DNA from: Candidatus Endolissoclinum faulkneri L2
GTDB lineage: Bacteria > Pseudomonadota > Alphaproteobacteria > Thalassobaculales > Thalassobaculaceae
Direction: 5' to 3'
Assembly: GCF_000319385.1 (NCBI RefSeq)
Contig: NC_019566.1
Coordinates: forward strand, 759,266-823,265
DNA length: 64,000 bases
Both the position numbers and the translations under genes were made by a program. Below the pieces are notes generated by a model. It saw only the letters and a list, made by a program, of their open reading frames with translations, was not told where the DNA came from and did not search any database. This document shows positions 3,984-7,962 of the stretch, one piece after another. How positions within the stretch are numbered: the first letter of the stretch is position 1; the number at the start of each line of letters is the position of its first letter.

Positions 3984-6275
3984 TTGCGCATAAAACTGAT
4001 CCGTTTTTGTCAGGTGATAGCGCTTACCTTCACGGTAGCTATTGGAGTTGGTCCAATAGCGAAGGCAAAGTTCGCGGAAATAAATAAGAATGTAATTAAA
4101 AATATTGTGATTGAGGGGACAAAACGTATCGATCCAGCTACAGTTCGTTCCTACTTACTGATTCATCCTGGTGATACATTTGATTCGGAAAGACTCGACC
4201 AATCGCTAAAAGCTTTATATAGTACTGGCCTGTTTGCAGATATAACTATGTATCGTGATTCTATTAACATGGTGATTAAGGTGGTAGAAAACCCTGTTAT
4301 TAATCGCGTTGCATTTGAAGGAAACAAGCGAATCGATGATGAAGAGTTAAAGCGCGAAATTCAGCTTCGCCCCCGCTTAGTATATTCCCGCACTCAAGTA
4401 CAACAGGATGTGCAAAGTATAATCAAGACCTATCAGCGTTCTGGATATTATGCTGTAAACGTTGAACCAAAAATCATACAACAAGATCAAAATCGTGTCG
4501 ATTTGATATTTGAGATCAACGATGGGGAACTGACTCGGGTAAGAACTATCAATTTTTTAGGTAATCGGGCATTTACTGATACTGCTTTGCGCGGAGTCAT
4601 TACAACTAAGGAATATGCATTTTACAAATTTTTCACTTTCGATGACACTTATAACACTGACCGTTTAAGTTACGATAGAGAGCTATTGCGTCGATTTTAC
4701 TTAAAAAATGGCTATGCAGATTTTCGCGTGCTTTCAGTCGTAGCTGAGTTTGCGCCAGATAGTAAGTCCTTTGTTATAACTTTTACCGTAGAGGAGGGGT
4801 GCATCTACACTTTTGGATCAAGTGACTTTGAGATATTTTTACCACAAGTTGATTCTAAAGCTTTGCGTAAGTTTGTCCTTACTAAGGAAGGACAAACTTA
4901 CGATGCTGATTTAATCGACGATACAATCTACGCCTTCAATAACTACCTTGGCACTTTAGGATATGCCTTCGTGGACTTAAGTCCTAAAGTGAATACCGAT
5001 GTTAAAAAGCGAATAATTTATATTACCTACCGAATTGGTAAAGCGCGTAAGGTTTTTATTGAACGAATCAATATAAGAGGTAATGTGCGAACGCTAGATC
5101 GAATAATTCGGCGAGAAATAAGCTTTGTAGAAGGTGATGCTTTTAGCATCAACCAGATGGTAATATCTGAGCAACGCATTCGCAATTTAGGATTTTTTAA
5201 AAGCGTTGATGTAAAAAATACTGAGGGTAGTCGGCCAGATCGTATCGTAGTTAATGTTGATGTTGAGGAAAAATCTACTGGTGAAATATCTTTCGGCATT
5301 GGCTTTTCTACAGCAGAATCAATAATCGGTGATGTTGCTATTCGTGAGAGAAATTTACTTGGGCGAGGGCAAGATTTACTTTTTAAAGTAACGACATCCA
5401 ATGTTGCGACCGAATTCGATATAGCCTTTACCCAACCTTATTTATTTAATCGTGATATAGCCGCCGGTTTTAATATTTTTCGTACTGCAAGAGAAAAGAA
5501 AGAAAGTTCCTATGATGAGTTTCGCTTTGGCGGAATGCTGCATTCCTACTACACTCTACAGCCATATCTAACCCAACAAATTAGATATAGACTTGAGCAA
5601 ATAGAAATTAAAGAAGTCGACGAAAATACTTCCCGCTACATCAAAGCTCAGGAAGGAACAAGGATAGTTTCTCAGTTTGGGCAAACTTTAACTTATGATA
5701 AACGCGATAACCGCCTAGATCCGCGCGATGGGTACATCACCCAGATAACGAATGAAGTGGCAGGTGCTGGTGGTGATGAAAGGTTTTTTCGTACCAGTGT
5801 AAAGGCTGGTTACTATTATCCACTAGATGATGTTTGGGGATTGTCATTGCTTATTAATAGTGGATTAATTGTAGGTATCGGTGAAGAAGTTTCCATATTA
5901 GAACGATTTTTTGTTGGTGCTAGTTCCTTCCGAGGCTTTGCGCGTGGTGGTATTGGTCCACGCGATAGTGTTAGCAAAGACGCCTTAGGTGCTAACAATT
6001 ACTATGTAGGATCGATTGAGCTTTCTTTTCCAAACGGCATGCCAAAAGACCTTGGTATGCGCACATTTATCTTTACCGATTTTGGTAGTGTATGGGGGGT
6101 TGACGAAAGCGATAGTAAAATAGCGGATGAGAGTTCAATACGCGCAACTGTAGGACTTGGTTTATCTTTTGCCACTGCACTTGGTACAATACGAGTAGAT
6201 GTAGCTGAAGTATTAGCAAAAGAAGATTTCGACGTTCCTGAAGTATTTCGCTTAAGCTTTGGTACGCAGTTTTGA
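3984..6275 (+). CDS. bamA: Outer-membrane protein assembly factor BamA
   Basis: BamA is the essential beta-barrel insertase of the BAM complex. The start is TTG at 3984 (TTG CGC ATA AAA). It gives a basic then hydrophobic signal peptide, with cleavage likely after AKAKFA near residue 30. Residues from about 30 to 400 form POTRA repeats, recognisable from VIEGTKRIDPATV, VAFEGNKRIDDEE and INFLGNRAFTD. The C-terminal half is the barrel, with the family motif SSFRGFARGGIGPRD and a terminal Phe in RLSFGTQF that acts as the BAM recognition signal. At 763 residues it is full length. BamE is encoded at 34.2 kb; Skp, normally the next gene, appears only as a relic. Confidence 0.97.
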   Translation: MRIKLIRFCQVIALTFTVAIGVGPIAKAKFAEINKNVIKNIVIEGTKRIDPATVRSYLLIHPGDTFDSERLDQSLKALYSTGLFADITMYRDSINMVIKVVENPVINRVAFEGNKRIDDEELKREIQLRPRLVYSRTQVQQDVQSIIKTYQRSGYYAVNVEPKIIQQDQNRVDLIFEINDGELTRVRTINFLGNRAFTDTALRGVITTKEYAFYKFFTFDDTYNTDRLSYDRELLRRFYLKNGYADFRVLSVVAEFAPDSKSFVITFTVEEGCIYTFGSSDFEIFLPQVDSKALRKFVLTKEGQTYDADLIDDTIYAFNNYLGTLGYAFVDLSPKVNTDVKKRIIYITYRIGKARKVFIERINIRGNVRTLDRIIRREISFVEGDAFSINQMVISEQRIRNLGFFKSVDVKNTEGSRPDRIVVNVDVEEKSTGEISFGIGFSTAESIIGDVAIRERNLLGRGQDLLFKVTTSNVATEFDIAFTQPYLFNRDIAAGFNIFRTAREKKESSYDEFRFGGMLHSYYTLQPYLTQQIRYRLEQIEIKEVDENTSRYIKAQEGTRIVSQFGQTLTYDKRDNRLDPRDGYITQITNEVAGAGGDERFFRTSVKAGYYYPLDDVWGLSLLINSGLIVGIGEEVSILERFFVGASSFRGFARGGIGPRDSVSKDALGANNYYVGSIELSFPNGMPKDLGMRTFIFTDFGSVWGVDESDSKIADESSIRATVGLGLSFATALGTIRVDVAEVLAKEDFDVPEVFRLSFGTQF
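4866..4902. repeat. Perfect 15-bp inverted repeat inside bamA
   Basis: The arms 4866-4880 and 4888-4902 pair without mismatch around a 7-base loop, inside a POTRA-coding region (residues KFVLTKEGQTYD). A second 10-bp perfect repeat follows at 4952-4961 and 4982-4991. These are sequence facts; any role is unknown. Confidence 0.85.
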
Positions 6276-6450
6276 ATATTCTTTGTCTGTAGATCAAACT
6301 GTGCTTTTAAAAAAAGCTTCTTAAATAAATAATTACCCCTTAAATGGGATCATAATGGTTTAGATCCGATAAAAAATGATAATAATTTTTTTATTAAAAA
6401 CGATGATCAATTGCAAATCATTAGCTGTGATAGAATCAGCCCTAGAGTAT

Positions 6451-6481
6451 AAAAAAAACAATTGCCTCATTTGTTTTTTTT
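6451..6481. terminator. A/T-run hairpin after bamA, possible terminator
   Basis: The arms 6451-6461 (eight A, then CAA) and 6471-6481 (TTG, then eight T) pair over 11 bp around a 9-base loop, ending in a run of T. It lies 175 bases after the bamA stop. The stem is almost all A-T pairs, so it is a weak terminator candidate at best. Confidence 0.35.
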
Positions 6482-6540
6482 TAGGAAATCATTTCACAAT
6501 ATGAATACTCCTAAATAAATACAGGAAAAATATAATTATA

Positions 6541-6837
6541 TATAGCAAATCTTTTAAACTCGTATCATCCAAAAGGTAAAAAGTTATTGCTTGCGAACGA
6601 AGAAGATTTACAACATTAGTGCTTAATCTTGCCTGCAACTGTTATTTTGAGAGCAACTTATGAAGGTATAAAATGCAGTAGCAAAGAAAAGTCCTTGTTC
6701 AGCCTTTCATTAAGGCAACGAAAAAAGTAATTAACATCTTAATTTCGTTCATTAATGTAATTAATGATTCAATAGACGATATAGTATTTCCTCTTAAGGA
6801 AGTTCATTTTTTTTCAAAAGAAATCAATGAATTGTAG
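6541..6837 (+). pseudogene. skp: Decayed skp/ompH (periplasmic chaperone) between bamA and lpxD
   Basis: In relatives a Skp/OmpH chaperone gene sits exactly here. In the frame ending at the TAG of 6835-6837, the spacer translates with internal stops (TAA 6577, TGA 6661, TAG 6679). It reads ACERRRFTTLVLNL, then QRKVLVQPFIKATKKV, then DDIVFPLKEVHFFSKEINEL. This follows the remembered OmpH C-terminal pattern: an E-x-RRR-x-F coiled-coil stretch, an RR-x-ALD-x-AF motif, then the DLVLPRSQVLF strand and a final helix. No start codon or signal peptide is left. The order and spacing of three motifs in one frame make chance unlikely, but this rests on recall of the family consensus, not a search. Confidence 0.6.
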
Positions 6838-6936
6838 CGAGGCTGCTTTGTCTAGAATAAATAAGCGCTGCCATTAATTAGGATCGAATTGCCACTACTA
6901 AATTGACGAACGATTATGTACGGAGGATGACAAAGC

Positions 6937-7962
6937 ATGGTCGATAGCCGGTTCCACAGCGAAGCTGGGCAATTTACCCTGGAGCAAATACTTGAAATGA
7001 CAGGAGCTAAATTGCATGGAAGTGGGGATCTAGCGCGTTTATTTTATGGTGTCAGCACACTAAATAATGGAGGTGAAAAGGAAGTAACATTCCTAGAAAA
7101 CCGTCGCTACTTGAAAGATTTTCGCACTTCCAAGGCAGGAGCTTGTTTAGTTCCTCCAGCTTTCGCGAATCAAGCACCAGATGGTATGGCAGTACTTATT
7201 ACCGCTATTCCTCGTCGCAGTTATGCTAAATTAGCGCGACTATTTCACCCTGCAGAGATTGCGCCGATAGGAGTGCATCCGACAGCTGTTGTTGATCCTA
7301 CTGCCAGGTTAGGCAATCAGGTTGCCATCGGGCCAGGTGCTGTCATTGGTGCGGAAGCAGTGTTAGGTGATTCAGCTTGGATTGAGGCTAATGCGGTAAT
7401 TGGTGAAGCAGTGAGGATTGGTGAAGGAACACGTATTGGTGTTGGCGCAGTAGTTTCCCATGCTTTGATAGGCGCTAGATGTTTTATCTATCCTGGAGCA
7501 CGAATTGGCCAGCCTGGATTTGGTTTTGAAATGGATGCAGGAGGTACGTTTCTAATACCACAACTAGGACGGGCAATTATCGAGGACGATGTAGAGGTTG
7601 GTGCTAATACTGCAATCGACCGAGGCAGCAATGCAGATACAGTTATAGGACAAGGGTCGATGATTGATAACCTTGTGCAAATAGGTCATAATGTTGTGCT
7701 AGGAAGAGGTTGCATAGTAGTTTCACAGGTCGGAATTTCTGGTAGCACCAGGCTTGGTGACCGTGTGGTGATTGCTGGAAAAGTTGGAATTGCTGGCCAT
7801 CTGGAAATTGGTAGTGACGTACAAGTTGCCGCCATGTCTGGTGTTAACCGTAGTCTGCCTGGAGGAGGTTCCTATGGCGGAGTACCAGCTATTCCGGTGC
7901 GCAAGTGGCGGCGACAAATCTCGAGATTAAAGAAGTTAGGGCAAAACAAACCGACTGCTTAA
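6937..7962 (+). CDS. lpxD: UDP-3-O-acylglucosamine N-acyltransferase LpxD
   Basis: LpxD adds the second hydroxyacyl chain to UDP-3-O-acylglucosamine in lipid A synthesis. The N-terminal 100 residues form the uridine-binding domain, with [12 protein letters not shown] seen. Hexapeptide repeats of the left-handed beta-helix then run from about residue 110 to 310, and the catalytic His is residue 251 in [10 protein letters not shown]. At 341 residues it has family length. The ATG at 6937 is preceded by GGAGG at 6921-6925. It opens the lpxD-fabZ-lpxA-lpxI-lpxB run, the usual alphaproteobacterial lipid A operon. Confidence 0.97.

Follow-up and report, generated by a model that had tools for sequence, protein, structure and literature searches.

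The spacer between bamA and lpxD in Candidatus Endolissoclinum faulkneri L2 very probably holds a dead skp (ompH) gene

What occupies the spacer between bamA and lpxD in Candidatus Endolissoclinum faulkneri L2, at the place where relatives carry skp? The organism is a symbiont of the tunicate Lissoclinum patella, and L2 and L5 form a published strain pair whose divergence was dated to 6-31 million years (PMC3851785). The L2 genome consists of one contig of 1,481,191 bases and is rated 99.95% complete. The window, i.e., the whole stretch of 64,000 nucleotides analysed here, covers its positions 759266-823265. Comparisons were made with Candidatus Endolissoclinum faulkneri L5 (NZ_CP006745.1; locus L001), the closest named relative with a BamA 84% identical to that of L2, and with four congeners (G002-G005) of the same GTDB genus, which have genomes of 4.7-5.6 Mb and are assumed to be free-living.

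The bamA-lpxD interval and its match to Skp

Both neighbours of the spacer are intact and lie on the forward strand. On the left, bamA (3984-6275) encodes 763 amino acids (Omp85 E 4e-64, POTRA E 7e-63), and on the right lpxD occupies 6937-7962 (LpxD E 9e-18, hexapeptide repeats E 5.5e-28). The relatives' loci examined show the gene order bamA-skp-lpxD, and the spacer of the window lies in the same syntenic place. The L2 spacer measures 661 nt and that of L5 (L001:7287-7961) 675 nt, versus 666-699 nt in the four congeners with intact skp. As the interval length resembles that of the congeners, the gene has decayed almost without net deletion.

A family profile of 191 columns was built from 21 Skp proteins: the symbiont's own GTDB family supplied 17, including those of the 4 congeners, and other families supplied 4. 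The whole spacer was scored against it with a custom program, not a published tool, which allows frameshifts, stops and gaps. The L2 spacer reaches 78.9 versus 29.0±3.5 for 300 dinucleotide shuffles (z 14, 0/300). For the spacer of L5 the score is 73.5 versus 27.6±3.5 (z 13, 0/300). In none of five parameter sets did a shuffle match the observed score of either strain. Among 576 tiles of the window (660 nt, both strands) those on the spacer are top by far, the best unrelated tile scoring 50.3. With a same-genus profile, L2 and L5 score 113.5 and 109.3; leaving the genus out of the profile yields 67.6 and 57.7, and a profile of the four other-family members is significant on L2 (59.1), not on L5 (36.4, z 1.8). 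Unrelated FtsZ, FtsA and FtsQ profiles score 25-30 on the spacer.

The first-pass annotation had proposed a ghost of skp in this syntenic place, and the scores far above shuffled spacers bear it out. The check that it recommended would have failed, since the single forward frame 6541-6837, with X at the stops, gives no match to Pfam OmpH (PF03938) up to an E value of 10. Against a family-specific HMM this frame yields only 8 bits. The spacer is recognised as Skp/OmpH only through a profile of relatives with frameshifts permitted, and not by PF03938 on a single frame.

This missing Pfam match could be taken as a sign of chance resemblance, in which AT-rich, Lys/Ile-rich intergenic DNA is read as a coiled coil. 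The GC content of the spacer and fossil (about 29-30%) and the promiscuity of coiled-coil profiles point in the same direction. Against it stand the z values of 13-14 in two strains, the 150 column-shuffled profiles, which never exceed 49.1 on L2 and 46.8 on L5, and the fact that synteny, interval length and stop position all fit skp. Shuffle, tile and column-shuffle controls refute chance resemblance, and we regard its probability as practically negligible.

Anatomy and age of the fossil

According to the frameshift-tolerant profile alignment, the readable part of the skp fossil extends on the forward strand over 6498-6906 and corresponds to Skp residues about 47-189 of 189. The path of the same-genus profile runs from 6498 to 6900 (residues 47-188 of 189) and is followed by the codons AAT and TGA. 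The presumed 5' part, comprising signal peptide and N-terminal strand, would lie at 6276-6497, a position deduced from the interval length only; it is unreadable now. Compared with the Skp of congener G004, 43/125 aligned residues of the L2 fossil are identical (about 34%). Its C terminus reads IELPLLN-stop, matching VDLPPLD-stop. The probable original stop codon, TGA at 6904-6906, precedes the ATG of lpxD by 30 nt, and the corresponding distance in the four congeners is 23-29 nt.

In L2, the best path crosses six stops and about five frameshifts, the exact positions of the latter depending on the penalties used; the set in L5 is partly different. Three premature stops occur at homologous places in both strains, as located by the profile path and DNA alignment: at Skp position 53 (6516-6518; L001:7516), at position 66, which is Gln in 4/4 congeners (6555-6557; L001:7555), and at position 86, a TAG where relatives mostly have Gln (6617-6619; L001:7616).

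As originally described, the frame 6541-6837 has three stops within it and shows QRKVLVQPF and DIVFPLKEV in this order; a further stop closes it. The readable part is larger than this frame, which lies within it, and continues past 6837 after frameshifts. The proposed QRKxLxQxF motif is confirmed by the alignment of QRKVLVQPF with RRRALDQAF. DIVFPLKEV had been placed in the correct region (L5 reads KLIPVKES there, against QVVLFKEQ), but the best L2 path moves into the next frame at this point. The E-RRR-F text probably arose by coincidence: in that stretch the best path uses another frame, with LLANEEDLQH* matching LRAAEQELQQQ.

Could the locus still yield a functional Skp, either shortened or recoded? 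The identity of about 34% to the congener protein over 125 residues would be compatible with this, as would the conservation between L2 and L5, which is 0.754 at first and 0.664 at third codon positions, a small and possibly insignificant trend. The six stops and about five frameshifts of L2, together with the partly different set of L5, argue against it. Stops interrupt all frames, and neither a start nor a signal peptide is readable. Furthermore, the spacers of L2 and L5 are 70.5% identical, whereas four-fold sites in seven flanking genes reach 74.4%, and the spacer alignment contains many indels not divisible by three. An identity that does not exceed that of four-fold sites, combined with frame-breaking indels, is what would be expected of unconstrained sequence. 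We consider a functional product of this locus highly improbable.

The same comparison bears on a further alternative, namely that the stretch survives because it harbours a promoter of lpxD or a regulatory element for this gene. Between L2 and L5, identity is 77% over the 30 nt directly upstream of lpxD, GGAGG site included. This short conserved stretch represents a ribosome-binding site of the ordinary kind. Taken as a whole, the spacer shows lower conservation than four-fold sites, and no Rfam family comes near its gathering score on the spacer, where the matches are at chance level. Retention for regulation is thus very unlikely.

What the spacer contains is a disrupted homologue without constraint, carrying stops and indels both shared between the strains and private to each. 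Its status as a pseudogene is judged from the sequence, and the absence of a protein product is predicted. With high confidence, we identify the spacer as a dead skp (ompH) gene that point mutations and small indels have degraded in place while its net length stayed almost the same. This reading is based on the sequence match, synteny, ancestral spacing, the lack of a detected intact copy, broken frames in both strains and shared stops. The three shared stops suggest that skp was already dead before L2 and L5 split; since its inactivation, the sequence would have drifted without detectable constraint.

Loss of skp and the remaining assembly pathway

No intact skp was detected in the L2 or L5 genome by PF03938 or by the family profile, a search that could miss a highly diverged copy. 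In the large-genome congeners, PF03938 gives clear matches in 4/4 and the family profile in 2/2 searched. These searches support the suggested genome-wide loss of skp from L2. Two other alphaproteobacteria, G013 (2.9 Mb, 93% complete) and G059, likewise gave no OmpH match above the cut-off, for which incompleteness is a possible cause.

BamA, BamE and a PpiD-like protein are intact within the window, as had been noted at first reading. Elsewhere in L2, intact frames exist for SurA (453 codons), DegP, LptD and BamD. lptD and surA are neighbours at G000:C1:836309-838137, with a pdxA-like frame after them, all of them open. With lptD and surA open, the SurA route and an LPS export protein remain, though late LPS steps are reported missing. 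To call Skp the main periplasmic holdase, as the first-pass annotation did, was an overstatement: SurA is regarded as the principal chaperone of E. coli, with Skp as its back-up (PMC2635482), and SurA and DegP are intact in L2. In a host-restricted symbiont, skp may have become dispensable because the retained SurA and DegP would carry its outer-membrane protein clients.

As a control of the method, we turned to ftsQAZ. An ftsZ pseudogene was sought by Kwan and Schmidt and not found (PMC3851785). On the 2-kb ddl-lpxC spacer of L2, the FtsZ, FtsA and FtsQ profiles give null scores only (z -0.8 to 0.2), which indicates that the method does not report ghosts indiscriminately. This spacer is unreadable and has 21% GC (L066:10581-12610; G000:C1 about 1096580-1098610). 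In L5 the ddl-lpxC interval is nearly deleted (about 100 nt, L067:12673-12770); it spans about 4.2 kb with ftsQ-ftsA-ftsZ in G002. Besides ftsZ, ftsA is missing too. At the skp locus, the spacers of both strains (L2: 6276-6936) have stayed within about 5% of the ancestral interval length despite many small indels. This suggests a weak deletion bias at the skp spacer, unlike at ftsQAZ in L5.

Comparison with known systems

The loss of skp in Ca. E. faulkneri is real and, within the literature searched, apparently unreported. skp is not listed in Table 2 of Kwan and Schmidt 2013, and skp/ompH is absent from the main text (PMC3851785). The biology is ordinary, i.e., the decay of a back-up chaperone gene in a shrinking symbiont genome. 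It adds a shared gene loss predating the strain split to a genome reported with strikingly few recognisable pseudogenes, and illustrates that fossils in Ca. E. faulkneri are readable once synteny and a close profile are combined. Whether the "empty" 43% of Ca. E. faulkneri consists largely of full-length gene fossils, decaying by substitution with little deletion, is a more speculative matter; we hold it to be possible, though rather doubtful. BLASTX of the intergenic regions found very few recognisable pseudogenes (PMC3851785). If the 43% were filled with fossils, synteny-guided, frameshift-tolerant profiles should read them where BLASTX reports almost none, skp being one example, and the published view that recognisable pseudogenes are few would be revised.

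The fossil resembles the Skp/OmpH genes of G002-G005 in that it lies between bamA and lpxD, occupies an interval of similar length, ends at a similar distance from lpxD and matches them at the C terminus up to the last residues. It differs from them by its stops and frameshifts, a GC content of 30%, an unreadable N-terminal third and its non-functional state. Like the Ca. E. faulkneri pseudogenes of Table 2 in PMC3851785, some of which are common to L2 and L5, it is frameshifted and stop-ridden in place. Buchnera is likewise an endosymbiont without Skp; for Buchnera the absence is stated (PMC3246468), whereas in Ca. E. faulkneri the wreck can still be read in place. Anaplasma and Ehrlichia, also intracellular alphaproteobacteria, have lost one of the two periplasmic chaperones as well (PMC2635482), but in the opposite direction: they lost SurA and kept Skp and DegP, whereas Ca. 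E. faulkneri lost Skp and kept SurA and DegP. Given SurA as the major chaperone, this reverse loss and the Skp-less Buchnera, the loss of skp is tolerable and not without precedent.
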